Shown here piece by piece: positions 48,289 through 63,914 of a DNA stretch of 64,000 nt (positions within the stretch are counted from its first letter, which is position 1; the number at the start of each line of letters is the position of its first letter). The DNA lies in the IMG/VR virus record IMGVR_UViG_3300044957_001482, positions 34,179 to 98,178 of that record. One strand, given 5' to 3'. The notes beneath the pieces are model-generated. The model searched no databases, was not told the origin of the DNA, and saw nothing but the letters and a program-made list of their open reading frames with translations. This stretch comes from a virus. A program made the position numbers and the translations under genes.

Positions 48289-48612
48289 ATGTCAGTTATG
48301 GAACCTAACTCAGATCAATTGTTTGAACATGCCCGCGCACGATTTGACCATGAATCGGCGCGGCGGCTTCTTAGAGAAAAGTATCAGGCACGCATGTTGT
48401 TTGCACATGCCGGTGGTATGTGGCGAGCAGGACCAGATTTGATAACACTGCTGCATGCTTGCTCGCACGCAGACAGCGTCGTGATAACGGATCTCTATGA
48501 CAATCCAGTGCAGGTATCTGTGAAAGAATTCACAGCATTGGTCATGCAGCGATGGCAAGAACAGATGAATGCCTGGCTGATAGAACACGAGCACTACAAC
48601 AAGCAACGATGA
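48289..48612 (+). CDS. Small conserved protein after the fibre genes
   Basis: 107 residues, helical, with a single alpha/beta-like core: FDHESARRLLREKYQARMLF, GGMWRAGPDLITLL, VVITDLYDNPVQV and RWQEQMNAWLIEH. Related phages often have a protein of this kind next to structural genes; a fibre-assembly chaperone role is possible but unproven. Its stop overlaps the ATG of the first glycosyltransferase-like gene (ATGA), so it begins the coupled cassette that runs to 63742. Confidence 0.6.
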   Translation: MSVMEPNSDQLFEHARARFDHESARRLLREKYQARMLFAHAGGMWRAGPDLITLLHACSHADSVVITDLYDNPVQVSVKEFTALVMQRWQEQMNAWLIEHEHYNKQR

Positions 48613-49403
48613 CCATCGGCGCGACCATACTGGCGTTCAACAACGGTACCATCGATTATGTGGCCCTGGCCGCATGGTCAGCACGCCGGATCAAACACTG
48701 GTTAAAAATACCAGTCTGTATCATCACCGACGCTGCCACCGTTGATCCGATATTTGATCACGTGGTACAGACATTGGCCCTGGGTGAACGCAGCCGCTAC
48801 TTTGAAGATCTGGCAGCCCTGGTGCCCTGGCACAATGCCAACCGAGCCGATGCCTATGATCTAACACCTTGGGATCGCACATTGTTGTTGGATGCTGACT
48901 ATGTGGTCAACAGCGACGTGCTTTCTGCTGTGATCGATACCTGCCAGGAATTTACCTGCCATCGTTATGCCTGGGATTTGGCCACAGGACAGATGATGGA
49001 TGACCTCAATTGGTTGGGACGCTATCGGTTTCCACAATGGTGGGCCACGGTCATGGTTTTTGATCGTAGCCCGCATGCCCGGCACATTTTTGATACCATG
49101 CGCATGGTTCGGAAAAATTGGGAACACTATCGTTTGTTGTACAGTATTACCAACCCCACGTTTCGCAATGATCATGCTCTCAGTATCGCTCTGGGAGTGT
49201 GTTCGGGACATACCCTGGTAACACGAGACATCGCCTGGCCTATGATGTCGATCATGCCGCACACTGCCTTGACACAGATCGATGAGTGGTCCTTTGGTCT
49301 GGAATACAAACGTGACCACAAACCGTTGTGTTGTCGGATCGCACACACTGATTTTCATGCCATGGGCAAGGGATATCTAGGAGCCATAGTTGCGTCCCAT
49401 TGA
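48609..49403 (+). CDS. GT-A-type glycosyltransferase-like protein
   Basis: 264 residues from the ATG at 48609 (a longer frame from 48552 lies inside the previous gene). Opening strand MTIGATILAFNNGTIDYVAL, then LLLDADYVV with Asp95 and Asp97 as the DxD-type metal motif, then WWATVMVFDRS and FRNDHALSIAL, as in nucleotide-sugar transferases. The protein at 49390 is a paralogue. The likely donor is a nucleotide sugar; the acceptor is unknown. It is translationally coupled on both sides. Confidence 0.7.
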   Translation: MTIGATILAFNNGTIDYVALAAWSARRIKHWLKIPVCIITDAATVDPIFDHVVQTLALGERSRYFEDLAALVPWHNANRADAYDLTPWDRTLLLDADYVVNSDVLSAVIDTCQEFTCHRYAWDLATGQMMDDLNWLGRYRFPQWWATVMVFDRSPHARHIFDTMRMVRKNWEHYRLLYSITNPTFRNDHALSIALGVCSGHTLVTRDIAWPMMSIMPHTALTQIDEWSFGLEYKRDHKPLCCRIAHTDFHAMGKGYLGAIVASH

Positions 49404-50163
49404 AGAACAGGGATATCTTGTTGTGGCAGTCAATGCCAATGAGATTGACTATGTGTCTTGCGCTCAGCGGCTCATGCAAACAGTCAAGCACTGGCATCCA
49501 GCTGCCAGGACCTGTTTGATAACTGATCAGCCCTATGAACATCCTGTGTTTGATCATGTTAGGATTTTGCCTGCAGTTGATAGGGACAATGTCTATGCCA
49601 ACGATGCTCAGGCATTTCGGCTGACACCATTTCGCGAAACCATCAAGCTCGAAGCCGATATGTTGATGGTAAGTGACTGTTCTCATTGGTGGAACATGCT
49701 GCGTCACAGAGATCTGGTAATCAGTGTCGGCTGCCGAACATGGCAGGATCGGGTCAGTTCTTCGCAGCATTACCGACGAGCATTTGTTGAAAATTCGTTG
49801 CCTGACGTATACAATGCCATTACCTATTGGCGATTGAGCGAAACTGCAAGAAATTTCTTCCGTTGGGTCAAAATAATTTTTTCGGACTGGGGTCGCTACC
49901 GTAGGTTGATCAAGTATCCCGAAGCAGTGCCCAGTACAGACCTGGTCTATGCCATGGCCGCACAGATCGTGGGGCCCGAGCAAGTCACGCTGCCGTTTGC
50001 TGCCTATCCTCGCATGGTACACATGAAACAGCATCATGCCGGAACTGTCTTGAAAGATTGGTCACAGGAATTGGTCTGGGAATACCACGACCATCGATTG
50101 CGGATCAACACCGTGGCTCAGTGGGGAGCTTTTCATTATCATGTCAAACACTGGCAACCATGA
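49390..50163 (+). CDS. GT-A-like glycosyltransferase paralogue
   Basis: 257 residues, start TTG inside the end of the previous gene. YLVVAVNANEIDYVSCAQRL, TCLITDQPYEHPVFDHV and KLEADMLM align with the same places in the preceding protein. The metal motif here is EAD (88-90) instead of DAD. The middle ISVGCRTWQDR and YNAITYWRLSETA also parallel it. The variant motif may mean a different donor or loss of activity. Confidence 0.6.
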   Translation: MRPIEEQGYLVVAVNANEIDYVSCAQRLMQTVKHWHPAARTCLITDQPYEHPVFDHVRILPAVDRDNVYANDAQAFRLTPFRETIKLEADMLMVSDCSHWWNMLRHRDLVISVGCRTWQDRVSSSQHYRRAFVENSLPDVYNAITYWRLSETARNFFRWVKIIFSDWGRYRRLIKYPEAVPSTDLVYAMAAQIVGPEQVTLPFAAYPRMVHMKQHHAGTVLKDWSQELVWEYHDHRLRINTVAQWGAFHYHVKHWQP

Positions 50164-50480
50164 CTCCTGAAGAATTTTTCAACGTGGCCTGGCCTGAGGC
50201 CGCCCCAGTCACATACCGTCTGTATCACGATAGCCGTGGGTTTCCGTTATTTTACAGCATGGAACACGTGCCTGGTACATACATCGAGATCACACAGCAA
50301 CAATATGCTGCAAACAGCATGTGGGTGCAAGTAATCAACGGTTGCCTAGAACCCCGGGCCTGGCAGACCGTAGGAAAATTGATTCCGTCCGATTCGGGGA
50401 TCAGTTGTCACTCACAGGATGTGGCCATTGTATGTGCCAACGGGATCAACTGGAGAGTAAAAAATTATGAAAAAAATTGA
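50160..50480 (+). CDS. Small unknown protein in the modification cassette
   Basis: 106 residues from the ATG at 50160, which overlaps the previous stop (ATGA). A longer in-frame start at 50058 lies within the previous gene and is less likely. Strand-rich, with YHDSRGFPLFYSMEHVPGTY and ITQQQY near the middle. I do not recognise the family. It could be an acceptor, a binding module or an assembly protein, since it sits between two glycosyltransferase-like genes. Confidence 0.55.
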   Translation: MTPEEFFNVAWPEAAPVTYRLYHDSRGFPLFYSMEHVPGTYIEITQQQYAANSMWVQVINGCLEPRAWQTVGKLIPSDSGISCHSQDVAIVCANGINWRVKNYEKN

Positions 50481-51393
50481 TGTAGCAGATCTTGATTGTA
50501 TCTATCTAACCTACGACGAGCCCCAGCGCGAAGAATTTTGGGTACGTATACGCAACATGATTCCTTGGGCTCGCAGAGTAGACGGAGTCAAAGGATCCGA
50601 TGCTGCACACAAGGCCGCCGGAGAAGCGTCGACCACGGAACGGTTCATACTGATTGACGGGGACAACATACCCGATGCTAAATTTTTCAATCTTGTACTG
50701 GAATTGGCCACTCCGGAGTGGGAGCAGGCAGTGTTTCGATGGCGTGCTCGCAATCATATCAATGGGTTGATGTATGGTAATGGTGGTATTTCGTCTTGGA
50801 CGCGCACATTTGTAGCCAACATGCGCACTCACGAAGCCACCGACGGCCGTACAGAAACCGAAGTGGAATTCTGTTTTGATCCTTTGTATTGGGCCATGCA
50901 CGACTGTTACAGCACTACCTACCCCAACGGGTCTGCGTTCCATGCCTGGCGAGCAGGGTTCAGGGAAGGGGTAAAAATGTGTCTGAACAAAGGTGCTTGC
51001 CCCACTGCAGCGGAATTTCGAGACCGAGTCCATCATAGAAATCTCGATCATCTCACCATATGGCACAACGTTGGTGCCGATGTTGAACATGGGTGGTGGT
51101 CCATGGCAGGGTCTCGGCAAGGCACATACATGACCATGCTGACCAATTGGGATCACCGCCAGGTACAGGATTTTGATGCCTTGGCTGATCTCTGGAACAC
51201 AGTAGAATCATCGGATCCTCGTATCTTAGCCGGCCGCGTGGCCGAGGATCTGCACACTCAGTTAGGACTACCAATGATCACGATGGAAGCACCGCAGAGC
51301 AAGTTTTTCAAACAACACTATAGATCCAATTGGCATAACCAAGGGCCAATGGTCAGAGAAATTGATGTGATACGCCGTCAAGAAGGATGGTGA
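50467..51393 (+). CDS. GT-A-like glycosyltransferase (DGD type)
   Basis: 308 residues. DCIYLTYDEPQREEFW at the start, RFILIDGDNIP with DGD at 64-66 as the likely metal motif, FRWRARNHINGLMYGNGGIS (about 95-114), and EVEFCFDPLYWAM resemble glycosyltransferase-like proteins of marine T4-like phages. It is a different subfamily from the pair upstream. The end overlaps the sulfotransferase-like gene. Confidence 0.65.
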   Translation: MKKIDVADLDCIYLTYDEPQREEFWVRIRNMIPWARRVDGVKGSDAAHKAAGEASTTERFILIDGDNIPDAKFFNLVLELATPEWEQAVFRWRARNHINGLMYGNGGISSWTRTFVANMRTHEATDGRTETEVEFCFDPLYWAMHDCYSTTYPNGSAFHAWRAGFREGVKMCLNKGACPTAAEFRDRVHHRNLDHLTIWHNVGADVEHGWWSMAGSRQGTYMTMLTNWDHRQVQDFDALADLWNTVESSDPRILAGRVAEDLHTQLGLPMITMEAPQSKFFKQHYRSNWHNQGPMVREIDVIRRQEGW

Positions 51394-52019
51394 TGATAGA
51401 AGCAGTGATTGCCCAGGCCAAGCAACAGGAAAAAAATATACTGATACTGTCCAGCGCACGCAGCGGTACTCATGCCCTGGGAGCGGAATTCAAATTTCGA
51501 GATCCCCAGATTCAAAACTTGGGAGAAATATGCGTGATGGGCCGCGCCAGCCCTCCCCACAGCGAAATCACAAAATTATTCAATACTCACAGTTTGTCTG
51601 TGGCGCATATAGTGCAAATGATACCAAAATTTTTTTTATCAGCGCAAGTTGACCGTATCAAACAACACACTATCATAATTTGTCTGCGTCGTAAAAACAA
51701 AGTCAAGCAGTTTGCAAGCAATTATTATTTCAAACACATACATCAAGGGCCTTGGCACAATCTAGCACAAACTGGATTCCAAGGTCGTCCTGCGCAGGTA
51801 GTGGCCAGTGAACAGGATGTCCTGCAATTTTTGCAAGAACAAATGATTGACGATTTTTTCCTGCCTGATTTCAATTTTTGCTATGAAGATATCCATTACA
51901 ATCAAACAAAGATTGTACCAAATGAATTTCCTTTTCCCATAGAGCAAATTTTTTCTAATCTTGACTACGTGCAATCAAATCTTGGAGATTGGACCTATCA
52001 TCATAAACATTTGCTATGA
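51387..52019 (+). CDS. Sulfotransferase-like protein
   Basis: 210 residues (an alternative ATG at 51393 removes two). After a short helix, NILILSSARSGTHALG (17-32) matches the 5'-phosphosulfate-binding loop of sulfotransferases, where SxRSGT is typical. HTIIICLRRKNKVKQFASNY near 93-112 is placed like the 3'-phosphate-binding region. It would transfer sulfate from PAPS to a sugar, protein or other hydroxyl or amine. It is shorter than most sulfotransferases (250-300 aa). It overlaps both neighbours. Confidence 0.7.
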   Translation: MVMIEAVIAQAKQQEKNILILSSARSGTHALGAEFKFRDPQIQNLGEICVMGRASPPHSEITKLFNTHSLSVAHIVQMIPKFFLSAQVDRIKQHTIIICLRRKNKVKQFASNYYFKHIHQGPWHNLAQTGFQGRPAQVVASEQDVLQFLQEQMIDDFFLPDFNFCYEDIHYNQTKIVPNEFPFPIEQIFSNLDYVQSNLGDWTYHHKHLL

Positions 52020-53431
52020 ACAACAAAGGCGACGAAACCATCAACAATAAATCCGGCTTCATGACCGGAGCCGAAGACATGCGAGACCGCTTGGGGTCTA
52101 GCCTTTGTCTGGCCAAATGGAAACAGGTCAGCCTGCATCTACCCACGGGCCTAAACAACAGTTGCTATCACCCTCCGCTGCATAGGGTGGATGTATCGGA
52201 GATACAGAAAATGCCGTCGGCACTGCATAATACTCAGCACAAAAAACAGCAGCGTCGTGACATGCTGGCAGGCATAAGACCCAGTGAATGTTCCTACTGT
52301 TGGGCCATGGAGGACAACGACAAGCTAAGTGATCGTCATTATCGTTCGGGCGAGCCCTGGGCTGCCAAAGATTTCCACAGCATTATGGTTTCTACCGGCA
52401 ACGAAGATAATGTATTGCCCAGTTATGTAGAAGTGAATTTTAACCATGCATGCAATCTCCGTTGCAGCTATTGCAGCCCGCAGTTTTCCACTACCTGGCA
52501 ACAGGAAATAGACCAATGGGGAGCATATCCTACCTCGGTTCCGCACAACGCGCCAGAGCATTTCCAGGGCGCCCGGAGACCCATTCCGGTACGCGAACAC
52601 AATCCCTATGTGGAAGCATTTTGGCAGTGGTGGCCCGACCTTTATCCTGAACTCACACATTTCCGTATGACCGGCGGCGAGCCACTGTTAGATAAAAACA
52701 CGTATCGAGTGTTTGACTATGTGTTGGCCAATCCCAAACCTGATCTACATCTCTGTGTCACGTCAAATTTTTCGGTAGACGAACGCTCTTGGCAACGATA
52801 TAAAAAATATGTAAAGCAGTTGTGTGAAGAAGGCATACTGGAACATTTCATGCAATATGTAAGTCTAGACGGTTGGGGCACTCGAGCAGAGTACATGCGT
52901 CATGGCCTAGATTTTGAGTTACTATGGGACCGAGTCAATCAGTTTCTTGAGGAAATCCCCTATCGAAACAGTCTGACGTTCATTGTGACCATGAACAATC
53001 TTTCGGTTACCAGTCTGGATCAGCTGTTTGCAGGTATCCTGGGTCTTAGAAAAACCTACAGCCATACCTATCAGCGAGTTTGGTTTGATACACCGGTATT
53101 GAGACAGCCGGAGTGGCAGAGTCTACAGATCTTGCCCGAAAGTTATGCAGAAAAATTGGCATGGCTGTGGGCCTGGATGGTACGTCAGACCGAACAACCG
53201 GAAGATCCGTTTCATGGGTTCAAGGACTATGAGGTCGCACGCCTCGACCGAGACATTGCCTGGATGAGATCCGGACAGAATCTAGACCCAAAAAAACTAC
53301 AACAACATCGAGCAGATTTCTATAGATTTTTTTCTGAGCACGATCGTCGTCGCGGCACTGATTTCCTTGGAACCTTTCTGGAGATGGCTACCTGGTGGCA
53401 CGAATGCGAGTATCATGCTCGGCAACTATAG
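52016..53431 (+). CDS. Radical SAM enzyme, subtype with CxAKW/CxHPPxH module
   Basis: 471 residues. The N-terminal cysteine module is C31 (CLAKW), C50 (CYHPPLH) and C92/C95 (CSYCW). The radical SAM motif CNLRCSYC gives C146, C150 and C153, and MTGGEPLL is at 218-225. The C-terminal part is helical and rich in Trp/Arg. The close relative at 54520 shares the HPPxH and SALHN/SAIHN-QKK features. Two clusters are likely: the catalytic one and a N-terminal auxiliary one. The substrate is unknown. The ATG overlaps the sulfotransferase-like stop. Confidence 0.85.
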   Translation: MNNKGDETINNKSGFMTGAEDMRDRLGSSLCLAKWKQVSLHLPTGLNNSCYHPPLHRVDVSEIQKMPSALHNTQHKKQQRRDMLAGIRPSECSYCWAMEDNDKLSDRHYRSGEPWAAKDFHSIMVSTGNEDNVLPSYVEVNFNHACNLRCSYCSPQFSTTWQQEIDQWGAYPTSVPHNAPEHFQGARRPIPVREHNPYVEAFWQWWPDLYPELTHFRMTGGEPLLDKNTYRVFDYVLANPKPDLHLCVTSNFSVDERSWQRYKKYVKQLCEEGILEHFMQYVSLDGWGTRAEYMRHGLDFELLWDRVNQFLEEIPYRNSLTFIVTMNNLSVTSLDQLFAGILGLRKTYSHTYQRVWFDTPVLRQPEWQSLQILPESYAEKLAWLWAWMVRQTEQPEDPFHGFKDYEVARLDRDIAWMRSGQNLDPKKLQQHRADFYRFFSEHDRRRGTDFLGTFLEMATWWHECEYHARQL

Positions 53432-54527
53432 ACTAGTGGTCGATCAATGGGCCGAAGTCTACGATCTATTGAGTCCCTATGCCGACGAATCCTTTTGGCG
53501 ATGGACCGATGTTGAGTTTGATCCTGGTTCGATCTATGTGGTAGGCCGCCTGATAGTCAAGGAAAACTGGCAATCCATTCGCGATCTATGCGAACTCTAC
53601 CCTGGCAGGATCGTGTTCTGTAATCCGGCCGAAGGGTCAGAGACCATAAAATTGCAGTTACAACGCCTGCGCATTACCGATTTGATACAGTCGGGAAAAA
53701 TGCTGTTGTTGACTTCCGGCGATCTAGAACCTGGATTCAATCATTTTTCTACCGACGTATACTTTTCCAACATCTGTGAGTACGACGAGAATCTCCGGGC
53801 CGCAGAAATGTCCGACCAAGTCTACACTCATTCAAAAACCCATGACTTTTTGTTTCTAAATGGAAGACTGAGACCGCATCGGCGTTATCTCATACACCGT
53901 TTCAGGCAAATCGGACTACTGGATCGTGCACTGTGGACCTGTCTACAGAGCCGGGTGGACATGCCCTGGAGCAGTAGTCTTGATCTTTCCGACATGCCCG
54001 CGCAGGAACAATTGAAATTGTTGCCCGCGGCCTACGAAATCGATCGGGCTGTGCCAAATCTTGGTCGACCTCTGCCTGATCGCGACGTCAAACACTTTCT
54101 GTTCGGCAACACCTGGGGCGATGCCATTGTCAATCCTCGTTGTTATATCGACACTGCATTCAGTGTGATAACCGAAACCATTTATGACTATCCGTATTCG
54201 TTTCGTACCGAAAAGATCTGGAAACCCATGATAATGGCCCATCCCTGGATAGCAGTGGCCAATACCGGATATTATCGGGATCTACGTGCGCGCGGTTTTC
54301 GTACGTTTGATCACCTGATCGACGAAAGTTTTGACAGTGTCGAGGATCCCCACATTCGTATCGAGCACATTGTTCAGGTAATCTCAGATATCGTGATCAA
54401 TGGACCTGTGTCTTTCTTGATGGCTGCCCAAGAGGTATGTAAATACAATCAACTACACCTTAGAGAACACAATCGTCTCGAACGATCTGCATTTCCGCAA
54501 AATTTGATTGGATATATCGATGGATGA
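53415..54527 (+). CDS. Exostosin/fucosyltransferase-like GT-B protein
   Basis: 370 residues from the ATG at 53415, the first start that does not extend far into the previous gene. The C-terminal half carries AFSVITETIYDYPYSFRTEK, IWKPMIMAHPWIAVANTGYY and LRARGFRTFDHLIDESFDSV, the donor-site pattern of exostosin-type (GT47-like) and related phage glycosyltransferases. The N-terminal half is the likely acceptor domain. The protein at 58775 is a divergent paralogue. It overlaps both neighbours, which are radical SAM genes. Confidence 0.65.
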   Translation: MLGNYRLVVDQWAEVYDLLSPYADESFWRWTDVEFDPGSIYVVGRLIVKENWQSIRDLCELYPGRIVFCNPAEGSETIKLQLQRLRITDLIQSGKMLLLTSGDLEPGFNHFSTDVYFSNICEYDENLRAAEMSDQVYTHSKTHDFLFLNGRLRPHRRYLIHRFRQIGLLDRALWTCLQSRVDMPWSSSLDLSDMPAQEQLKLLPAAYEIDRAVPNLGRPLPDRDVKHFLFGNTWGDAIVNPRCYIDTAFSVITETIYDYPYSFRTEKIWKPMIMAHPWIAVANTGYYRDLRARGFRTFDHLIDESFDSVEDPHIRIEHIVQVISDIVINGPVSFLMAAQEVCKYNQLHLREHNRLERSAFPQNLIGYIDG

Positions 54528-55854
54528 TTTAGAATTTCGTCAACAGGTATTAGACAAGAAATCCGCCAGTTTTTGTGCAGCCAAATGGTACAATGCCACC
54601 ATCTGGCTGGGATCGGGCATGACTACCAGTTGTCATCATCCTCCGGCACATTACATTGATTTTGGTCGCATGATACAACATCCGTCGGCCATACACAATA
54701 GCTTGCAAAAAAAACAAGACCGCAAGATGATGAAGTATGGTGAACGTCCTCCGGGCTGTGAATACTGCTGGAAGATCGAGGACATGGGCCGCGACGCAGT
54801 GAGCGATCGGGTGTACAAAAGCCGCATCTACTCGCAGTCCGAGTTGGACGAAGCCTATGACATGGATTCTGATGCCGATGTCAACCTCAAAACACTGGAA
54901 ATAGCATTTGATCGCACCTGCCAATTGGCCTGCAGCTATTGCAATCCGGCATTCAGTACCACCTGGGTGCGAGACATCAAGACCAACGGTGCCTATCAAG
55001 GCTTGGTGTCCGATGGTCGCAATCATTTTACTCACACTCATGATTCCGCACAATTGTACAATTATGGCGAAAACAACCCCTATGTGGATGCATTTTTTCG
55101 ATGGTGGGAAACCGACTTACATCGCACACTCAAAGAACTGCGTATCACCGGTGGTGAACCCTTGATGTCGGCGCATACCTGGAAATTGATTGAATGGTTT
55201 CGAGACAATCCAGGACGCAGTCAGACTCGCCTGTCCATCAACAGCAACCTCAGCATGCCCAGTGAGCGCCTGTCGGAGTTACTGTCAGCATGCGAGGGCA
55301 TAGAACTAGACATCTATACCAGCAACGAAAGCATGGACACTCATGCCGAATATATTCGCGATGGCCTGGTTTGGCAGCAGTGGGTCGACAACATGTGGTT
55401 GCTGATGCACAGCGGTCGTCTACGCGGACTACATGTCATGAATACTATCAATGCTCTATGCCTAGAGAGTCTTCCTGAATTCTTGACCATGCTGGTGACT
55501 TGGAAAAGCCAATGGGGTGCAGACTTTCCGAATTTTACTTTGAATATCTTGAGATTTCCTAGTTTCCAGTCACCCCTGGTGTTGCCGTATGACATACGGA
55601 TGCATCACCGTGGCCGCCTTCAACGTTGGCTCGACATTTATTCTGGTCATGTCATGATACAACCGCATGAGCGCAATCATGTACAACGCTTAATTGATTA
55701 CCTCGATGTGGTAAAAACACCGCATTCAGAAGCCTTTGACTTGAAAAAATTAACAAACGATTTTGGACAATTTTATCGACAGTACGATGCCAGACGTCAC
55801 AAAGACTTTGTTAAAACATTTTCTACCCTATCATCCTGGTATCAAAAACTATGA
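54520..55854 (+). CDS. Radical SAM enzyme, second CxAKW/HPPxH subtype member
   Basis: 444 residues from the ATG at 54520. C19 (CAAKW), C38 in CHHPPAH, C80/C83 in CEYCW; radical SAM motif CQLACSYC (C134, C138, C141); RITGGEPLM at 208-216. It is clearly paralogous to the protein at 52016 (SAIHNSLQKKQDRKM vs SALHNTQHKKQQRRDM). The stop overlaps the next radical SAM gene (ATGA). The pair may act on related positions of one product or form a heteromer. Confidence 0.85.
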   Translation: MDDLEFRQQVLDKKSASFCAAKWYNATIWLGSGMTTSCHHPPAHYIDFGRMIQHPSAIHNSLQKKQDRKMMKYGERPPGCEYCWKIEDMGRDAVSDRVYKSRIYSQSELDEAYDMDSDADVNLKTLEIAFDRTCQLACSYCNPAFSTTWVRDIKTNGAYQGLVSDGRNHFTHTHDSAQLYNYGENNPYVDAFFRWWETDLHRTLKELRITGGEPLMSAHTWKLIEWFRDNPGRSQTRLSINSNLSMPSERLSELLSACEGIELDIYTSNESMDTHAEYIRDGLVWQQWVDNMWLLMHSGRLRGLHVMNTINALCLESLPEFLTMLVTWKSQWGADFPNFTLNILRFPSFQSPLVLPYDIRMHHRGRLQRWLDIYSGHVMIQPHERNHVQRLIDYLDVVKTPHSEAFDLKKLTNDFGQFYRQYDARRHKDFVKTFSTLSSWYQKL

Positions 55855-57572
55855 CCTTAGAAAAATTAGTATCCGATTACTCCTGCCGTTTTGAGTTGTT
55901 ATCTGTTACCAATCTCGACGATTGGTATAGCATGGATCCTCTGGAAAGACCACAATGGTTATACCAGCAGATAAAAAGATTACACCGTGAAAAATATCAT
56001 GACAATCAACGCCTAGTCTTTACACTGAGTCAGGATGATGAATATCTCCACGAGTCAGATGCGTTGGGATTGATTTTGACCAATCTGGTGGAAAGTATCA
56101 ATCAAATTGACATCAGTAATTTTTTTGTAGTTTTGTTCCTCGCTCGTAATCAGAATTTAATCGTTGCTTCAGAACAGTTGCTTACCGTGAGCACCGATCC
56201 TGTACCTATCACTGTGGAGTGGTTTGGCGATCTTGCAGTGTCATCTAAAAAATTATCAAAAACATCAGTCAATACCGGATATACCTATAATTCTCGAGTT
56301 CCTTTAAAACTGAGTGTGGATTCCATGACACCGGAGCAGAGAGAACGGTTGTTGTTCAGTGATTATTTTTGCATGTATCCATGGTTGCATCTTTATGTCG
56401 AGCCCAGTGGTCAGACCTATCCTTGTTGTGGGTATGCATATAGACCCGAATTTTCTGTGGGAAATACCACTCGCCAGAGTCTGATCGAAATATGGAACGA
56501 TCGTCCCATTCGAGATCTACGACTTAATATGTTAGGAGATCGCCCCACCCAAGGTTGTGCTAGATGTTACGAGCAAGAACGTGCTGGATTTGTCAGTATG
56601 CGTATCAGTGCAAACAAGCATCACGGTCATCACATCGACAAAATAGACCTGACCCAAGTCGACGGAACTGTGGATCCCATGCAATTGATTTATTGGGATG
56701 TGCGTTTCAATAATCTTTGCAATCTAAGGTGCCGAACCTGCGGCCCCAGCTTCAGTAGCAGTTGGTATCAAGATCAAGTCGCTATTTCTCCTGATTATGC
56801 GCAATCGCATCGACCATTGATATATGCCGGAAAATATGAAACTGATTTATGGAATCAGTTGCTAGGACAGCTAGACTATGTCGAACAGATTTATTTTGCT
56901 GGCGGCGAACCTTTGATTACCGATGAGCACTATCGTATTCTAGAAGAACTGGAACGTCGCGGACGATTTGACGTCCGCCTGATCTACAACACTAATTTTA
57001 CCGAGATACGCCTCAAAGATCGAATGGTATTTGATTATTGGAAAAAATTTCACAGTGTCAGTGTGGGTGCCAGTCTGGATGCCGCCGATTCGCGCGGTGA
57101 ATATATACGCAAAGGAACGGTATGGAGTGAGGTCGAGGACAATCGTCGGCGCATGATAGAAATTTGTCCTCGAGTGGATTTTTATGTCAGTGCCACATTG
57201 TCTATACTCAATGCCTGGCATTTGCCTGACTTTCATCGAGATTGGAGTAAACGCGGTCTTATCAAACCTCAGGATTTTAACATCAATGTGTTGACCGATC
57301 CGCCGGTCTACAGGTTGGATATTGCACCATCAGAATATCGCGATCAAATACGAGAAAAGTATCTCAATCACTTGGCCTGGCTGAGCCCACAAGATGCACT
57401 GCGTCGTGCCAGCAACGGTTTCCAGTCTGCCATTAAATTTATGGATAACAAAAATAATTCTCACCTTGTTCCTGCCTTTTGGAAACGTACGAAACAATTG
57501 GATGCTGTGAGAAAAGAATCCATGCTGGACAGCATTCCTGAACTGTCGGCCCTATTGCCAGATCGAATATAA
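55851..57572 (+). CDS. Radical SAM enzyme with extra N-terminal domain
   Basis: 573 residues, the longest of the set. The N-terminal 125 residues (QIDISNFFVVLF near 85-96) match the extra domain of the radical SAM protein between gp47 and gp46. The cysteine module is C174 (CMYPWLHLYV), C192-C193, C236/C239 (CARCY). The radical SAM motif CNLRCRTC gives C290, C294 and C297, and FAGGEPLI is at 349-356. SVGASLDAADSRGEYIRKGT follows, as in SPASM-type maturases. The shared extra domain suggests a substrate shared with the 15129 enzyme. Confidence 0.87.
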   Translation: MTLEKLVSDYSCRFELLSVTNLDDWYSMDPLERPQWLYQQIKRLHREKYHDNQRLVFTLSQDDEYLHESDALGLILTNLVESINQIDISNFFVVLFLARNQNLIVASEQLLTVSTDPVPITVEWFGDLAVSSKKLSKTSVNTGYTYNSRVPLKLSVDSMTPEQRERLLFSDYFCMYPWLHLYVEPSGQTYPCCGYAYRPEFSVGNTTRQSLIEIWNDRPIRDLRLNMLGDRPTQGCARCYEQERAGFVSMRISANKHHGHHIDKIDLTQVDGTVDPMQLIYWDVRFNNLCNLRCRTCGPSFSSSWYQDQVAISPDYAQSHRPLIYAGKYETDLWNQLLGQLDYVEQIYFAGGEPLITDEHYRILEELERRGRFDVRLIYNTNFTEIRLKDRMVFDYWKKFHSVSVGASLDAADSRGEYIRKGTVWSEVEDNRRRMIEICPRVDFYVSATLSILNAWHLPDFHRDWSKRGLIKPQDFNINVLTDPPVYRLDIAPSEYRDQIREKYLNHLAWLSPQDALRRASNGFQSAIKFMDNKNNSHLVPAFWKRTKQLDAVRKESMLDSIPELSALLPDRI

Positions 57573-57573
57573 C

Positions 57574-58794
57574 ATGAATATTCCTCATAAAACTTTCTGT
57601 GTGTTGCCTTGGATCAGTTTAGAAACCAGTCCGATCGGAACGGTTCGGCCGTGTTGTTTGGCCGACGACGAAATTGTTGACGATGCTGGCAACAAGTTTG
57701 AACTGATTACCGCAACTTTTGATCAAGTGCAACAAAGCCAACACATGCAACGCCTGCGTAAACAATTTTTGGCTGGGGAGAAACCGCAGACCTGTCGCAA
57801 GTGCTGGAATGAAGAACGCGGAGGTCGAACCAGCAAACGTATGCACACCCAGGATCGTCTCAAGCACATACTACCCGATTGGGAGTGGACTGCAGATGCC
57901 AAACCATTGATGTTTCTGGATCTCAAACTGGGCAACATCTGTAACTTAAAGTGTCGTATCTGTGGGTCTTGGTCCAGCAGTCAGTTTGCTGTGGAAGAAA
58001 TAAATCAGTTACCCACCGACGAAGACAAGAAAAAATCATATGCTTATCAGATGCTGAGAGCCGGAGCCTGGCCCAAAGAAAACGAACATTTCTGGTCAGA
58101 AATAGATCAAGCGTTGGGCCAAATTCTTTTTATTGAATTTACCGGCGGCGAGCCTTTTATGATTGACCAGCACTTTGATATGTTGCAGAGTATTGTGGAT
58201 CGTGGAATTGCCAACCAAGTGGAAATACACTACAACACCAATGGCACACAATATCCCGAGCGTGGCGAAGCAATTTGGAAGCATTTCAAAATAGTAGAGG
58301 TTGCATTCAGTATCGACGATGTAGGTGAGCGATTTGAATATCAGCGCACAAATGCAAATTGGGCTGTAGTACTTGATAATATCACACGTTTTCAATACTT
58401 GCAAGATCAAATGCCTAATTTGCGCTTGCAATGCTGTTCAACAGTGAACATATTCAATGTTCGTTATATTGATCAATTGTCTCATTGGATAGCACTGCAA
58501 CGATTTGATTTTGTGTATTGGAACATGCTGCATGACGCCTGGTACTTTTCGATTGCTACACTTCCTGACTCAGTCAAGGCTGCTATTACAGAGCACCTAG
58601 ATACAGCAAATGTGCCATCACAATACCGTGCGGAGTTTGATCGTATTATAGATTTCATGAATACTGGTGCATCAACAGATGGATTTATGTTGCGAATGAA
58701 AATACGCGATCTAGATCGCAAACGCAATCAAAACTTTCGTGACGTGGCTCCAGAAATGGCCCAGTTGATTAATTATGACTATGCATCGATTTAA
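57574..58794 (+). CDS. Radical SAM enzyme, compact PCC subtype
   Basis: 406 residues, starting almost directly with the cysteine module: C9 (CVLPWISL), C27-C28, C74/C77 (CRKCW). Radical SAM motif CNLKCRIC gives C123, C127 and C130; FTGGEPFM at 189-196. VAFSIDDVGERFEYQRTNAN corresponds to the SIDD/SLDG segment of the others. The start is one base after the previous stop; the end overlaps the next gene by 20 bases. Function unknown. Confidence 0.87.
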   Translation: MNIPHKTFCVLPWISLETSPIGTVRPCCLADDEIVDDAGNKFELITATFDQVQQSQHMQRLRKQFLAGEKPQTCRKCWNEERGGRTSKRMHTQDRLKHILPDWEWTADAKPLMFLDLKLGNICNLKCRICGSWSSSQFAVEEINQLPTDEDKKKSYAYQMLRAGAWPKENEHFWSEIDQALGQILFIEFTGGEPFMIDQHFDMLQSIVDRGIANQVEIHYNTNGTQYPERGEAIWKHFKIVEVAFSIDDVGERFEYQRTNANWAVVLDNITRFQYLQDQMPNLRLQCCSTVNIFNVRYIDQLSHWIALQRFDFVYWNMLHDAWYFSIATLPDSVKAAITEHLDTANVPSQYRAEFDRIIDFMNTGASTDGFMLRMKIRDLDRKRNQNFRDVAPEMAQLINYDYASI

Positions 58795-59794
58795 GATATT
58801 GTGCAACCACGACGATCCAAATTCGTTTTGTCATGGTTCTTTTAGTAAATTTTTATCAAAACATTTCGATTTGGTAAGATTTGGTGACGGAATCAAGCAC
58901 AATAAGAAAGATACACTAATTGCTGTAGCTGCTTTCAATTTCAAGAGCGGAAATCCTGAGGCCAATGACTGGTATCGTTCTTATCTTGATCAAGGGTTCA
59001 AAATATTAGTAGATGGGTTATGGGAGCATAAAGAATTTTCAAAAATCTTTCGGTCAACATATAAATTTGATAATTTGCCACACTGGCCAGAAACTGATGG
59101 TAATTTTTTTATATGTCATATAAAAAATTGGTTTTGGTATCTTGAATCCGTGTGGTACACTGATATGGGATATCACACCTATAGACCAAACAAAACATAT
59201 ACCAAACTAGCGCTCATGCCCATGCGTGTTAACCGTCGGCATAGAAGTGAAACTTTGGTAAGAATGAGCAGCATGCTAGATGACATGATTTGGAGTTATG
59301 CATCGCATGAGAAATATTTACCCAACGACTTCTCGCCAGATCATCCTCAGTTTCAGCGCCATTTTGATCCTAGCTGGTATGATAGTACTTACTACAGCCT
59401 TGTGACTGAGACTTACGCAGAGGAAGACGCACATATTTCTTCAGATATTTTTGTCACAGAAAAAACTTTCAAGCCCGTGGCATTCTATCATCCTTTTATG
59501 TGTGTGGCACAACAGGGGCACTTAGCTTATTTAAAAAGTCAAGGATTTGAAACATTTGAAAACATGTTTGACGAAAGTTATGATCAAATTCCTACGGTGG
59601 GTGAGCGAATCAAACACATTGTATCTCAGTCTAAATCATTTAAACGAAAATATTACCGTAAACGAAAACCTTACAGTCAACTGACATGGGACAAACTTGC
59701 TCATAATCATGACAGATTTTACAATCAGCAGATAGTAGAATCATGTCTGATTAAAGAATTAGTCGAACCTATTTTACAATATGCCGAATCCTAA
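58775..59794 (+). CDS. Exostosin-like glycosyltransferase, divergent paralogue
   Basis: 339 residues (an internal ATG two codons in is equally possible). The C-terminal donor-site pattern is YSLVTETYAEEDAHISSDIF, VTEKTFKPVAFYHPFMCVAQ, LKSQGFETFENMFDESYDQI. The gene looks more A/T-rich than its neighbours, which suggests a different origin. It lies between two radical SAM genes, like the paralogue at 53415, and overlaps both. Confidence 0.65.
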   Translation: MTMHRFKILCNHDDPNSFCHGSFSKFLSKHFDLVRFGDGIKHNKKDTLIAVAAFNFKSGNPEANDWYRSYLDQGFKILVDGLWEHKEFSKIFRSTYKFDNLPHWPETDGNFFICHIKNWFWYLESVWYTDMGYHTYRPNKTYTKLALMPMRVNRRHRSETLVRMSSMLDDMIWSYASHEKYLPNDFSPDHPQFQRHFDPSWYDSTYYSLVTETYAEEDAHISSDIFVTEKTFKPVAFYHPFMCVAQQGHLAYLKSQGFETFENMFDESYDQIPTVGERIKHIVSQSKSFKRKYYRKRKPYSQLTWDKLAHNHDRFYNQQIVESCLIKELVEPILQYAES

Positions 59795-61082
59795 CGCCCC
59801 TGCCACACTTTGCATGGCTCCGTGGACTCATACATATCTGAGTCCTCAAACCGAGCGCAGAATGTGTTGTGCCAGTCGTGAACCAGCACAAAATTTTCAA
59901 CAATACATCGACACTGCTGCCGGCACTGGCCAATATCGTCCCAGCACATTGGACGAACACTGGAACAGTGATCACATGCGGTCAGTTAGGCGCCGCATGA
60001 TGGCCGGTGAAACATTGCCCGAGTGTGAAGTCTGCAATAACAAATTGCTTAACACTGATGTTTATCGTGATTATTTCTGGCGGTTGTTCCAACATCGGTA
60101 TGATGAAATCTGGCAGTCCACGGACGACAATGGTCATACTTCCATGCAGCCCACCAGCTGGGACTACAGATTCTCAAATCTTTGTAATTTCAAATGTCGT
60201 ACCTGCGGAGACATGCTGAGTTCTTCTTGGGAAACCGAACAGCGCCAGTATAACATGGTTGACTGGTCCGATCCCAAAAATGCTTGGATGCGCTCTGATA
60301 TTCGGGCTGAAATTGCGAAATTTCAAGACCAACAGGTCGAACAAGAATTCGCACAAGCAGTCGAACAACATCGGGTAGAAGAAATCTACTGGGTAGGCGG
60401 CGAGCCGTTGATGTACGAACAACACTGGAGGTACATGCGACGCATCATTGAGCTAGGCGACGGCTCTGGGCTCTACGCACGTTACAATACCAACCTCAGT
60501 CGTGTCACCTGGCAAAAAGCCAATTTATTCACAGACATACTTTCTCAGGTCAGAGACTGGCAGATCTGTGCCAGCCTGGATGGCACTGGTTCAGTGGGCG
60601 AGTATTTGCGAACAGGTCTGGACTACAAACAATGGGTAGAAAATTTTCGATTTGGTGTTCAACACCAAAAAACTGCCAGACAGATGAGAATCGATTTTAC
60701 TCTGACTTTGCCTGGGTTGGGAGAAATACTTCACATCGAAAAGCTGGCCGCTGAATTTGGCGTAGATATATTGGCCAAGGTCGTTTTTAGTTTTTCTCCC
60801 AACATTGTGTTGAGTCCACTGGCCTTGCCTCGAAAGTTGTTGGACCGCAGCATTGCTTGTATACTACCGCTGGTGACCACCAGAGTCATGAAAGACATGT
60901 TGCAACAATTGCAACAGAGACCAACTTTCCAGGAACAATGGCCGGATACCGCTGATCAGGCACTGGTCCAGGGCAAAAAAAGACTTTTAGACATCGAAGC
61001 CGTGCGCAAGGATACATACACTATCTCGGATATATTCCAACAACAGGACAGCGAAATATATGCATGGTGGCAAGGCATCTGA
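59781..61082 (+). CDS. Radical SAM enzyme, fifth in the cassette
   Basis: 433 residues. C11 (CMAPWTHTYL), C29-C30, C82/C85 (CEVC); radical SAM motif CNFKCRTC (C135, C139, C142); WVGGEPLM at 204-211; then ICASLDGTGSVGEYLRTGLD near 250-270. The C-terminal half is helical. The start lies inside the end of the preceding glycosyltransferase gene, and the stop overlaps the next gene by 23 bases. Product unknown. Confidence 0.87.
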   Translation: MPNPNAPATLCMAPWTHTYLSPQTERRMCCASREPAQNFQQYIDTAAGTGQYRPSTLDEHWNSDHMRSVRRRMMAGETLPECEVCNNKLLNTDVYRDYFWRLFQHRYDEIWQSTDDNGHTSMQPTSWDYRFSNLCNFKCRTCGDMLSSSWETEQRQYNMVDWSDPKNAWMRSDIRAEIAKFQDQQVEQEFAQAVEQHRVEEIYWVGGEPLMYEQHWRYMRRIIELGDGSGLYARYNTNLSRVTWQKANLFTDILSQVRDWQICASLDGTGSVGEYLRTGLDYKQWVENFRFGVQHQKTARQMRIDFTLTLPGLGEILHIEKLAAEFGVDILAKVVFSFSPNIVLSPLALPRKLLDRSIACILPLVTTRVMKDMLQQLQQRPTFQEQWPDTADQALVQGKKRLLDIEAVRKDTYTISDIFQQQDSEIYAWWQGI

Positions 61083-62154
61083 ACAGATATGTATCACAGC
61101 GCGAGACTACCGTGATGGCCGACTCCACGATATTGTCATAAACACAATCTCCAGTTCGCTGTGTGACAAATGGCTAGAACATGTGATAGATCTCGTGAGA
61201 TCACAGGCTCACCTTGAAAAAAATTATTGTTGGTTGGGCTGGCCCGACAACGATCGCAACGGTCACTATATTCTAGAACAGATCAATCAGAGCATCGACG
61301 CCATCAATCAAGCCGATCTAGGTTACAACATACAGGACCGGTTTGAGTGGTCACAGTGCATGACCGATCAACCCCGAGATGGGCGAGTTGTGGGCCGAAA
61401 TATCATTCATGAAAGGTTTAACGACCTGCATAGATATTTCGAAGATCTCCAAGGAACCAGCGGAAATCTCAGCCTCTACTATCAGTGCGCCGACGCAGTG
61501 ACTCGTTGGCATATCCGACAACTTAATCTTTTGTGCCACGAATTTGAGTGCTGGGCATTGAGTTATCGTCGTCAGCTCGAAGCGCCGGAATGGATACGAC
61601 CCAGTACCTTGATGTGCTGGCTGTCGGCTCCGCGATTTCTCCTGGACGATCGAGATTTTGAATTGTTTGGCATCGACGCCATCAATCGCGACCCGGGCGG
61701 TGTGTATGTGGGAGTCAACAAAGCCGTGGGCAAGCATCACTGGGAAGTGTTCAACGACGAGGGCGGCGACAGTCGGTTGGATAGCTTGACCACTGGTTCA
61801 TTGAGATCTCAGACTGAGGCCGCGGGAGATTTTGATATCGAATGGGGTCGTTGTGCTCGCGATTATCCTTGGCAAAAAGAACGACTGCAACAATTTGAAA
61901 CATGGTTGCACTGCAACGGGTTTGATCCTCGAGATCCTGGGCTAACTATCGGTCACCCCAAGGTAGCGCAGGTCGACCTGGATCTGAGTTTTGGAACCAC
62001 CGACACTCAATCAATATGGAAACAGTTGTCCTGCTGTCTTGACGTATGGAAAGTCTCTGTGGCCGGCGTCGAGGCAACGTATGATTACCACTGGTCAGAC
62101 TGTGATTTTACTCAGCGGCAAATCGAAATTATCAAACGGAGAGAGCAATGTTAA
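61060..62154 (+). CDS. Unknown 364-aa protein of the radical SAM cassette
   Basis: 364 residues. No recognised enzymatic motif. Trp/Asp-rich, with YCWLGWPDNDRNGHYILEQI near 56-75, CHEFECWALSYRRQLEAPEW near 160-180 and DPGGVYVGVNKAVGKHHWEV near 210-230. I recall similar proteins beside radical SAM genes in other marine phages but know of no function. It overlaps the radical SAM gene before it and the 34-aa gene after it. It may be an accessory or scaffold protein for the enzymes. Confidence 0.6.
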   Translation: MHGGKASEQICITARDYRDGRLHDIVINTISSSLCDKWLEHVIDLVRSQAHLEKNYCWLGWPDNDRNGHYILEQINQSIDAINQADLGYNIQDRFEWSQCMTDQPRDGRVVGRNIIHERFNDLHRYFEDLQGTSGNLSLYYQCADAVTRWHIRQLNLLCHEFECWALSYRRQLEAPEWIRPSTLMCWLSAPRFLLDDRDFELFGIDAINRDPGGVYVGVNKAVGKHHWEVFNDEGGDSRLDSLTTGSLRSQTEAAGDFDIEWGRCARDYPWQKERLQQFETWLHCNGFDPRDPGLTIGHPKVAQVDLDLSFGTTDTQSIWKQLSCCLDVWKVSVAGVEATYDYHWSDCDFTQRQIEIIKRREQC

Positions 62155-62252
62155 ACTGGTTTTGCAACGTCATCGAACGAATCAAACTTGAAATCCGTTA
62201 TCGGAAAAAACTCAAAGAACTACGTAAAAGAGATCCCTTTATCTACAAATGA
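62148..62252 (+). CDS. 34-aa basic miniprotein before the carbamoyltransferase
   Basis: 34 residues: a hydrophobic/amphipathic start MLNWFCNVIERIK, a strongly basic helix, and an ending ELRKRDPFIYK. It overlaps the previous stop by 7 bases and the carbamoyltransferase ATG by 4, so it is placed to be translated. Short peptides ending in a DPFIYK-like motif are, from memory, found next to carbamoyltransferases in other marine phages, so it is likely real. It may bind the enzyme or a membrane. Confidence 0.65.
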   Translation: MLNWFCNVIERIKLEIRYRKKLKELRKRDPFIYK

Positions 62253-63742
62253 ACAATATTCTAGGCATCAGTGCCGGATTTCACGACGCTGCTGTCACTG
62301 TGATTGATCGCAGTGGAAATATCTTGTTTGCAGCGCACAGCGAGAGATACAGCAAGGTCAAGAATGATTCAGCACTGCACATGGATCTCTTGGCCGAGGG
62401 TCTGAGTTACGGAATTGATTCTCTGGCATTCTTTGAAAGACCCTGGATGCACAATTTGCAGCAGTGGTGGTCGCAACAAAAACACTACGGCGCCTGGCGC
62501 GTGAAGGATCGCATACGCGAGCTGGCGCCTCCAGAACAGTCTCACGATCTGCTACAACGGCCGGCTCAGGCCTTCCCGCATCATCTGTCTCATGCTGCCG
62601 CAGGGTTTCAAACCTCACGGTTTGATTCAGCCGCAGTGGTGGTGATAGATGCCATCGGTGAGCTGGATACCATATCCATTTATCGTGCTTGGTATGATCA
62701 GTCGGGCCGTGCTCAGTATAAAAGGCTGTGGCGCCAGGGCTATCCGCACAGCATTGGTTTGTTTTACAGCGCCGTGACTGCAGCAGTGGGGCTGAAGCCC
62801 ATGGACGAGGAATACATCACCATGGGCATGGCTGCCTATGGTTCAGACCATGGACGAGCTTGGCTACAGAAAAATTTCATAGCAGATGCTGACGCCATTT
62901 GTTTTTCACAAAATCTGCATATTGGATTTACCGACGGAACCTTTGATTACTGGTGCAAGGAAAGCCTGGCAGCATCGGCACAGAGTCTCACCGAAGAATT
63001 GATCATGTCAGTGATGCGTCGGGCCGCTGCATTAACCAAGGAACCCAACTTGGTCTACATGGGCGGCGTGGCCTTGAACTGTGTGGCCAACCGACGCCTG
63101 GGACAGATATTTGATCGTACCTGGATCATGCCCAATCCCGGAGATGCGGGATCCAGTCTTGGTGCGGCGGCCCTGGCCCATGGTGGTCGATTGTCATGGA
63201 AAGATGCGTATCTGGGACATTGTATCCAAGGAGATTATCCAGTCAAACCATTGCTGGATCACTTGATCAGTGCTAAAATAGTGGGGGTTGCATCGGGCCC
63301 GGCCGAGTTTGGCCCGCGTGCATTGGGTAATCGCAGTTTGTTGGCGGACCCGCGTGGTCCTGACATCAAGGATCGCGTGAATGAGATCAAGCGTCGACAG
63401 AAATTCCGACCCTTTGCCCCGGTTATTCTGGCAGAAATGGTCAACGAATATTTTGACATGCCGCATGGTTGGACAGACAGCGATTACATGCAGGTGGTTG
63501 CACGCTGCCGTCGTCCGGATCTTTTTCCTGCCATATGTCATTATGATGGTACCAGCAGAGTACAAACAGTGCCCAGAAACTCAAGATCGGGGATACGACG
63601 ACTGTTGGAGTCCTGGTTTGTGATGACCGGGTGCCCCATGTTACTGAATACCAGCTTAAACATACGAGGAGAGCCCATGGTCAATGACCGTGCAGATGCC
63701 GACCGATTTGAAAAATCATACGATGTCAAGGTATTGAGTTAG
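62249..63742 (+). CDS. Carbamoyltransferase (NodU/CmcH family)
   Basis: 497 residues. The N-terminal Kae1-like domain begins ILGISAGFHDAAVTVID and contains HHLSHAAAGF (111-120, metal-binding His residues). MGGVALNCVANRRL is near 271-284 and PGDAGSSLGAAALA near 297-310. The C-terminal YrdC-like part holds AEFGPRALGNRSLLADPR (352-369), KFRPFAPVIL (385-394) and LNTSLNIRGEPMV (466-478). Family members transfer a carbamoyl group from carbamoyl phosphate through a carbamoyl-AMP intermediate to a sugar or natural product hydroxyl. The key motifs are present, so it is probably active. It is the last intact gene of the cassette. Confidence 0.93.
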   Translation: MNNILGISAGFHDAAVTVIDRSGNILFAAHSERYSKVKNDSALHMDLLAEGLSYGIDSLAFFERPWMHNLQQWWSQQKHYGAWRVKDRIRELAPPEQSHDLLQRPAQAFPHHLSHAAAGFQTSRFDSAAVVVIDAIGELDTISIYRAWYDQSGRAQYKRLWRQGYPHSIGLFYSAVTAAVGLKPMDEEYITMGMAAYGSDHGRAWLQKNFIADADAICFSQNLHIGFTDGTFDYWCKESLAASAQSLTEELIMSVMRRAAALTKEPNLVYMGGVALNCVANRRLGQIFDRTWIMPNPGDAGSSLGAAALAHGGRLSWKDAYLGHCIQGDYPVKPLLDHLISAKIVGVASGPAEFGPRALGNRSLLADPRGPDIKDRVNEIKRRQKFRPFAPVILAEMVNEYFDMPHGWTDSDYMQVVARCRRPDLFPAICHYDGTSRVQTVPRNSRSGIRRLLESWFVMTGCPMLLNTSLNIRGEPMVNDRADADRFEKSYDVKVLS

Positions 63743-63743
63743 C

Positions 63744-63914
63744 ATGGATCAACACATTGCATTTATAGGTGATAGCTATTGTTCGGACTACACAGCAAAT
63801 CACGAACAGTTGTTGTTTGATACCCACAAACTGGGATGTCGCAATCGAGGAACCGTGACATCTATCTATTGTTGGCCGCCGCTGCTGTCCGTCATAGCAA
63901 GGACTGAGAGATGA
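63744..63914 (+). pseudogene. Truncated SGNH-hydrolase-like start
   Basis: 56 codons. IAFIGDSYCSDY contains the GDS block of SGNH/GDSL hydrolases with the nucleophile-type Ser, but the remainder has no hydrolase features and the frame stops inside the next gene's start. SGNH proteins follow carbamoyltransferases in some phage cassettes, so this is probably a phage gene cut off where a different sequence begins. Confidence 0.5.

Follow-up and report, generated by a model that had tools for sequence, protein, structure and literature searches.

The window analysed here is a stretch of 64,000 nucleotides, the final 64 kb of the 98,178-base IMG/VR record IMGVR_UViG_3300044957_001482 (record end 98178 is window position 64000). 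Behind the tail-fibre genes it carries 16 plus-strand genes (48289-63742) encoding five radical S-adenosylmethionine (SAM) enzymes, glycosyltransferase (GT)-like proteins, a carbamoyltransferase and several proteins of no known family. The cassette is genuine: a biosynthetic block that is conserved widely and, for the most part, has yet to be characterised. We tentatively suggest that a lineage of T4-like jumbo phages uses it to decorate the virion. The source is a T4-like jumbo myophage of an uncultured lineage; the window contains a myovirus module of T4-like type, which comprises a portal gene, gp46/gp47-like genes, the baseplate hub and a gp6-like wedge, and records related to it are up to 345-349 kb long.

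The program-made open reading frame (ORF) starts were too long for some genes, and internal ATGs were used for the second (48609), fourth (50160) and eighth (53415). With these starts, 14 junctions overlap by 4-23 bases and one is a 1-base gap (from g1 to g16: -4, -14, -4, -14, -7, -4, -17, -20, -4, +1, -20, -14, -23, -7, -4), exactly as stated in a first-pass annotation of the window made from the sequence alone. Relatives were collected with the 364-amino-acid (aa) product of the fourteenth gene, X14, which gave 272 IMG/VR matches. We analysed the best 80 of the 272 loci, not dereplicated, and all co-occurrence figures are conditional on X14, by which the loci were selected. Of the 701 junctions between neighbouring cassette genes in these loci, 654 are overlaps and another 25 have a gap of 0-10 nt, so the tight packing is not due to chance. 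Eight core genes keep one order in 62/80 loci, and the components are found in most of them (R13 in 80, m15 in 76, R9 and C16 in 75 each, R10 and R11 in 74 each, R7 in 69 and E8 in 66). R13 and X14 are adjacent in all 80. X14 homologues thus occur with the same gene set, not singly in unrelated contexts.

The position behind the fibre genes is also constant. In the upstream DNA of the large records, the giant protein, f201, f598, f321, g1 and g2 follow the same order in 17/17 relatives, and g3, g4 and g5 keep it too as far as the available DNA reaches. The giant 4911-aa protein is homologous to giant virion proteins of the jumbo phages PA5oct, Salicola SCTP-2, Atu_ph07 and Phosso. The features are as follows (coordinates in the window; N-Twitch, N-terminal Twitch; MS, mass spectrometry).

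29954-44689, plus strand: giant 4911-aa baseplate/virion structural protein (phrog_10938, E 6e-291; synteny 17/17 relatives)
44854-45459, plus strand: f201, small virion protein (synteny 17/17; PA5oct homologue annotated as detected in the virion by electrospray ionisation tandem MS, ESI-MS/MS)
45483-47279, plus strand: f598, fibre protein (synteny 17/17; homologues in Atu_ph07, 2e-47, and PA5oct, 5e-43, MS-detected)
47292-48257, plus strand: f321, Thr/Ser-rich fibre-type protein with conserved C-terminus WGTPT (synteny 17/17)
48289-48612, plus strand: g1, 107 aa, conserved, without family match (in 17/17 relatives)
48609-49403, plus strand: g2, GT-A-like by motif (DADY), corrected start (synteny 17/17; without Pfam or PDB profile support)
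49390-50163, plus strand: g3, GT-A-like by motif (phrog_1903)
50160-50480, plus strand: g4, small protein, corrected start (ATGA overlap)
50467-51393, plus strand: g5, GT2/GT-A-like with a DGD motif (66-80% identity among relatives; weak Glyco_tranf_2_3)
51387-52019, plus strand: g6, sulfotransferase-like by eye, accessory gene in a variable slot (own contig only)
52016-53431, plus strand: g7 (R7), N-Twitch radical SAM enzyme (NF033640 3.6e-89; CxxxCxxC 57/57)
53415-54527, plus strand: g8 (E8), GT-B-like, corrected start (AlphaFold pLDDT 94.2; Foldseek WaaG/POGLUT1/EXT, low significance)
54508-55854, plus strand: g9 (R9), N-Twitch radical SAM enzyme (NF033640 1.3e-83; CxxxCxxC 67/67)
55851-57572, plus strand: g10 (R10), N-Twitch radical SAM enzyme (NF033640 9e-114, SPASM 2e-13; CxxxCxxC 13/13)
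57574-58794, plus strand: g11 (R11), N-Twitch radical SAM enzyme (NF033640 1.7e-100; CxxxCxxC 63/63)
58775-59794, plus strand: g12 (E12), exostosin-like by motif, facultative (in 35/80 loci)
59781-61082, plus strand: g13 (R13), N-Twitch radical SAM enzyme, always paired with X14 (NF033640 3.3e-83; 80/80 loci)
61060-62154, plus strand: g14 (X14), 364 aa, fold without PDB match, probable radical SAM partner (272 IMG/VR stretches)
62148-62252, plus strand: g15 (m15), 34-aa miniprotein, carbamoyltransferase partner (nearly invariant C-terminus)
62249-63742, plus strand: g16 (C16), NodU/CmcH-type O-carbamoyltransferase (Pfam domains; phrog_1601 1e-89)
63744-63914, plus strand: beginning of a gene that looks GDSL/SGNH-like by eye (FIGDSYCS), interrupted close to the end of the contig
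8745-9977, plus strand: amidinotransferase (phmmer: HsvA 6e-11, StrB1-type 1.6e-9, AGAT 1e-8)
15129-16646, minus strand: sixth N-Twitch radical SAM gene, between the gp46- and gp47-like genes

Radical SAM enzymes, X14 and the genes of isolate phages

All five cassette radical SAM proteins score 280-381 bits with the NF033640 profile, for which membership requires >170 bits. The CxxxCxxC motif is intact in 100% of the full-length members of every group and four N-terminal auxiliary cysteines are conserved in each of the five, which bears out their earlier description as radical SAM enzymes with auxiliary cysteine modules. R10 of the window contig has an N-terminal extension of ~165 aa. In a quick maximum-likelihood tree, R7, R9, R10, R11 and R13 separate on long stems; four groups each fall on one side of a branch, and R7 does likewise but for one outlying sequence. 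The group labels were taken from profile best hits, which makes the tree partly circular, and the operon position agrees with it; on sequence grounds we regard the five enzymes as separate orthologous groups.

None of 14 cellular control genomes has an N-Twitch enzyme above the cut-off. The ~340-kb relatives have 11-19 matches per record, with only five or six within the cassette; among G008 and the other records of this size, one reaches 19, mostly outside the cassette. The gene at 15129-16646 is syntenic in the related records G005 and G008. A-type iron-sulfur (Fe-S) carriers are encoded in 10/12 records, which fits a heavy Fe-S demand. An isolate, Vibrio phage K566, carries four N-Twitch radical SAM genes that are interspersed with GT-like genes close to a fibre-like gene (L088:14959-24426) and offers a cultivable relative system.

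For X14, we found no match by sequence in PDB, Pfam or PHROGs, and no homologue in 84,980 GTDB species genomes (pattern-based scan) or in 50,697 records of isolate phages. An alignment of 44 sequences has about ninety invariant columns. The predicted structure (predicted local distance difference test, pLDDT, 87; predicted template modelling score, pTM, 0.86) has no PDB match at E <0.4, while nine viral predicted structures match the fold at probability 1.00, including a 768-aa protein and a 300-aa protein of Atu_ph07. A sequence link between X14 and the latter was also sought, but the hhalign probability was 0.1 and no such link is claimed. Since X14 always adjoins R13, a radical SAM-partner or substrate-binding role is the simplest inference, and X14 is probably a dedicated radical SAM partner.

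The isolates Atu_ph07 and Phosso show what can occupy the same slot. Atu_ph07 has homologues of f201 (phmmer, 6e-63) and f598 (2e-47), and in both phages a cupin-like gene, a radical SAM/SPASM gene, a structural-like protein, more radical SAM genes and a 300-aa gene stand directly behind the f201/f598 homologues. The 300-aa gene amid the Atu_ph07 radical SAM genes is probably the X14 fold neighbour. Between the two phages the radical SAM/SPASM proteins are 81% identical and the structural-like proteins about 40%. The latter end in DFCHSSCHASCHNSRSRR or DYCHTSCHASCHSSRSRR, following the pattern CHxSCHxSCHxxRxRR. The triad of cupin, radical SAM and CHxS-tailed genes is also found in Burkholderia phage SURPRISE13 and Pseudomonas phage DT01. 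A relaxed motif scan found the CHxS tail in 14/15 IMG/VR stretches, always at the exact C-terminus, with a radical SAM gene directly before it in 11. Proteins with this tail thus occur in jumbo phages of four host genera (L257:13119-14009, minus strand; L260:7001-7921; L261:4560-5120; L262:4525-5061; L263-L277), and they look like radical-modified virion tails. No CHxS tail was found in the window or in the cassette relatives. The Atu_ph07 enzymes belong to a different radical SAM subfamily (C-terminal SPASM, by eye), so what the isolates support is that, in this slot, radical enzymes act on virion-type proteins; the support does not extend to the exact reactions of the cassette.

These genes also speak for a reading without sugars, in which X14 and the radical SAM enzymes would introduce crosslinks or epimerised residues into a structural protein, much as in ribosomally synthesised and post-translationally modified peptides. 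A radical SAM/SPASM gene directly precedes the CHxS-tailed protein in all four isolates and in 11 of the 15 motif-found stretches, and X14 has viral structural neighbours, one of them probably encoded between radical SAM genes. We nevertheless consider this quite unlikely. The cassette has no precursor-like ORF and almost no intergenic room; its only small candidate, m15, occurs mostly without radical SAM genes (see below). The CHxS tail is missing from the window and the cassette relatives, the Atu_ph07 enzymes and X14 similarity have the limits given above, and the GT-like and carbamoyltransferase genes would be left unexplained.

Carbamoyltransferase, miniprotein and sugar-transfer-like proteins

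C16 has both Pfam domains of the NodU/CmcH family above cut-off (PF16861, Carbam_trans_C, 165 bits, 1e-48; PF02543, Carbam_trans_N, 112 bits, 6e-32) and matches phrog_1601 (1e-89). Its nearest solved structures in the PDB are NovN, GdmN and TobZ, O-carbamoyltransferases of sugars and antibiotics, and the original assignment of this gene is confirmed. The TobZ specificity residues W408/G421/R423 could not be mapped safely onto C16 and were not used as an argument.

The miniprotein m15 has a variable start and an almost invariant C-terminal RYRKKLKELRKRDPFIYK. A DNA pattern for this C-terminus matched at least 120 stretches (L089-L208). Among the matches listed, the m15 profile finds m15 in 104, and C16 lies at most 1.7 kb downstream in 87 of these; it follows m15 in 56 of the 63 listed matches with enough downstream DNA. 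Any radical SAM gene is found beside m15 in only 12 of the 51 listed loci with 3 kb of upstream DNA. As C16 is usually downstream and radical SAM genes are mostly absent, m15 is a partner of the carbamoyltransferase and not the precursor peptide of the cassette. The latter role was attractive for the frozen C-terminus, and was rejected for this reason; the first-pass placement of the miniprotein in the radical SAM pathway is not supported. As a module of two genes, m15 with a NodU-type carbamoyltransferase is widespread in uncultured phages, for the most part with no radical SAM gene; in the marine virus AG-345-D19 the pair stands beside a radical SAM and an amidinotransferase-like gene. We also considered m15 as a DUF5989 homologue and discarded this, since the PF19451 profile matched in 0/6 records.

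Phage enzymes of the C16 superfamily act on 5-hydroxymethylcytosine (PMC8670742), and C16 could in principle serve DNA hypermodification as a carbamoyltransferase of this base. This is very improbable: C16 is 26% identical to that enzyme, reads GPRALGNRS where the latter has GPRALCNTT, and sits in a tail operon. PF00303 (thymidylate synthase/dCMP hydroxymethylase) was found in only 1/21 cassette records, several of them about 340 kb long, and DNA carbamoylation was rejected on the missing homologue in the other 20.

Behind C16, the relatives have a convergent block with an amidinotransferase in 40/54, at least one E12-type GT-B-like gene in 51/54 and an epimerase in 29/54, the last count covering only the downstream DNA available for each locus. 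In the window contig the amidinotransferase is placed elsewhere (8745-9977). Epimerase-family genes for nucleoside diphosphate (NDP) sugars are present in 11/12 records. The slot of the sulfotransferase-like g6 is variable among relatives, which carry inserts of GDSL-like (56), adenosine phosphosulfate (APS)-kinase-like (18), tryptophan-halogenase, FkbM methyltransferase, AMP-ligase and NDP-sugar epimerase genes, some inserts being sulfotransferase-like. In eight loci a gene of the tryptophan-halogenase family (PF04820, 4.5e-91; L013:14757-16004) lies behind the cassette. For g6 itself (210 aa) no Pfam or PDB sulfotransferase match was obtained and no copy was found in relatives; the gene is private to its own contig. 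Neither the sulfotransferase label nor sulfate as a fixed part of the pathway is supported.

Such accessory genes could also belong to a diffusible small molecule or cofactor-like product, similar to an aminoglycoside or nucleoside, that controls the host or competitors. The amidinotransferase adjoining the cassette in most relatives is related to StrB1-type, AGAT and SxtG enzymes, C16 is related to NovN, GdmN and TobZ, and halogenase, AMP-ligase and epimerase genes are at hand. However, we recognised neither genes for export or resistance nor a carrier protein or an enzyme for a core scaffold, and the position is locked behind fibre genes, which makes this explanation improbable.

The sugar-transfer-like proteins are less clear than first described. 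Among the three GT-A-like proteins, the 308-aa g5 shows a weak Glyco_tranf_2_3 match (5/24 members, best E 0.0012), while no convincing Pfam or PDB profile match was found for g2 (283 aa) and g3 (257 aa), the latter matching phrog_1903, a PHROG without assigned function. Of the two exostosin-like proteins, no profile matches the 386-aa E8, whose model (pLDDT 94) comes nearest to GT-B enzymes at low significance (WaaG, probability 0.96; POGLUT1, 0.92; EXT1-EXT2, 0.38); the 339-aa E12 has no profile support.

WaaG belongs to a class of enzymes of the lipopolysaccharide (LPS) core, and the cassette may instead remodel the host surface, altering LPS or capsule during infection and blocking superinfection. 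The epimerases would suit this, and GTs that occupy this region in marine T4-like phages have been interpreted in this way (PMC7029224). On the other hand, no flippase, polymerase, polyprenyl-phosphate enzyme or membrane GT was found in the conserved cassette or the accessory set, and the position is late and linked to the fibres. A lipid-linked host polysaccharide is therefore disfavoured as the target, although peripheral enzymes could act on LPS; as a whole, we judge host-surface remodelling rather unlikely.

Virion decoration as the proposed function

Gene order, families, conservation, solubility and the link to the fibre genes were all established by computation. The conserved set contains no multi-spanning membrane protein, and only 1/193 accessory ORFs has two transmembrane-like segments. 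Homologues of f201 and f598 are MS-detected virion proteins in PA5oct. The Atu_ph07 and Phosso genes in the corresponding slot are the strongest hint from outside the lineage as to what is modified and count in favour of virion decoration, as do the interspersed genes of phage K566. The soluble products, A-type carriers, epimerases and amidinotransferase favour decoration in the cytosol, most likely of the virion, and a sugar-like ornament put together there would agree with the position beside the fibres and with the epimerases, the amidinotransferase and the carbamoyltransferase.

Under virion decoration, the cassette would be expressed late, together with the tail operon, and before the cell lyses its soluble enzymes would assemble a short glycan on a protein of the tail fibre or baseplate and tailor it chemically, or else would modify side chains of that protein. 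The GT-like proteins would transfer the sugars. Each of the five N-Twitch enzymes, which are not interchangeable, would be responsible for a single radical reaction (an epimerisation, a deoxygenation or the formation of a C-C or C-S bond) with either the sugar or the acceptor protein as substrate, with X14 as a putative dedicated partner and Fe-S clusters presumably supplied by host or phage A-type carriers. The m15-C16 pair may then cap a hydroxyl with a carbamoyl group, and the facultative genes (GDSL, APS kinase, sulfotransferase, halogenase, FkbM methyltransferase, epimerase) would make the end groups differ from phage to phage. The phage would probably gain by having its receptor binding altered or shielded.

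Several observations weigh against this proposal. The GT labels of the cassette are weak, the fibre proteins of the window have no Cys-rich tail, and no candidate substrate or acceptor was identified in this lineage. The many N-Twitch genes elsewhere in the genomes, one of them between gp46 and gp47, indicate that these enzymes are not tied to fibres. Gene distances correlate poorly in a mirror-tree comparison (Spearman mostly 0.1-0.5, with the g5 values confounded by paralogues), which indicates a fixed order with reshuffled alleles. The first-pass interpretation is thus supported in part: the enzyme set is constant, packed and placed behind fibre genes, but the single pathway postulated at the outset is weakened by the poor co-variation, and we do not claim one inherited unit.

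In the literature searched, no paper was found with this exact gene combination and no product is known for it, as the first-pass annotation had already supposed; radical SAM tailoring of a virus particle is likewise a kind of virion maturation not described there. There is a substantial, though less than even, chance that five N-Twitch enzymes, the new-fold X14 and a miniprotein-assisted carbamoyltransferase together make a novel tail-protein ornament. If true, lytic phages would carry a multi-step, oxygen-sensitive radical chemistry for their own coat, with five uncharacterised radical SAM reactions for which the conserved gene order is a guide. It would help to explain why aquatic T4-like phages hoard radical SAM and Fe-S carrier genes and would suggest what the NF033640 family and the m15-carbamoyltransferase pair do. 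It would also tie in with a cultivable system, the CHxS-tailed virion-type proteins beside radical SAM genes, in which radical protein modification can be tested.

At the contig end, window positions 63895-64000 read MSDFVSGFWGWYVGITVVASVIGCLLLMKS, which by eye resembles the start of a bacterial cbb3 oxidase subunit; the 30 aa encoded there have no Pfam match. The GDSL-like ORF stops just before this stretch, and the contig end may be chimeric.

Comparison with known systems

The nearest relatives of the parts differ from the cassette in their arrangement. We know of no reaction for the NF033640 family; the cassette enzymes all exceed its cut-off and keep all cluster cysteines, and what sets them apart is the presence of five fixed paralogues in one operon. 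NovN, GdmN, TobZ and NodU share with C16 both domains and the GPRALGNRS and HHLSHA motifs, but C16 is shorter (497 aa) and paired with a 34-aa miniprotein ending in RDPFIYK. SxtI has the small neighbours SxtJ and SxtK (PMC2885083), and these, like DUF5989, resemble our pair in placing a carbamoyltransferase beside a tiny ORF without assigned function. The DUF5989 profile fails on these phages, however, and homology to m15 is not claimed.

Among whole phages, Moraphages were considered as the lineage of the window and set aside. Their hosts are predicted to be Bacteroidota and, in the part of the source available to us, no radical SAM or carbamoyltransferase gene was found. The T4-like environmental genome TARA_ERS488813_N000010 (183 kb) has 12 radical SAM genes and an A-type carrier (PMC5332604). 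It resembles the present phages in joining many radical SAM genes with an Fe-S carrier, but the accessible portion of that report discusses Fe-S metabolism and describes no cassette. In mycobacteriophages, phage GTs are reported to decorate capsid and tail proteins (Freeman 2023, cited in PMC12619734). The resemblance of this virion glycosylation to the cassette is functional only. To our knowledge, it involves no radical SAM or carbamoyl steps.

That marine T4-like phages can carry GTs and radical SAM cassettes in the region of their fibre genes is already on record. The host-recognition clusters (HRCs) of pelagimyophages contain fibres, GTs and, in some genomes, radical SAM cassettes; they are hypervariable and non-syntenic, and their GTs were proposed to change the host surface against superinfection (PMC7029224). 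The HRCs of pelagimyophages and cyanomyophages resemble our locus in the T4-like setting and in having GTs, in some genomes with radical SAM cassettes, downstream of fibres and a giant baseplate protein, with VrlC as a possible counterpart of the 4911-aa protein. Whereas the HRCs are non-syntenic, the locus described here is a block of 12-16 genes, with X14 and five radical SAM groups, that keeps a fixed order across 80 contigs.

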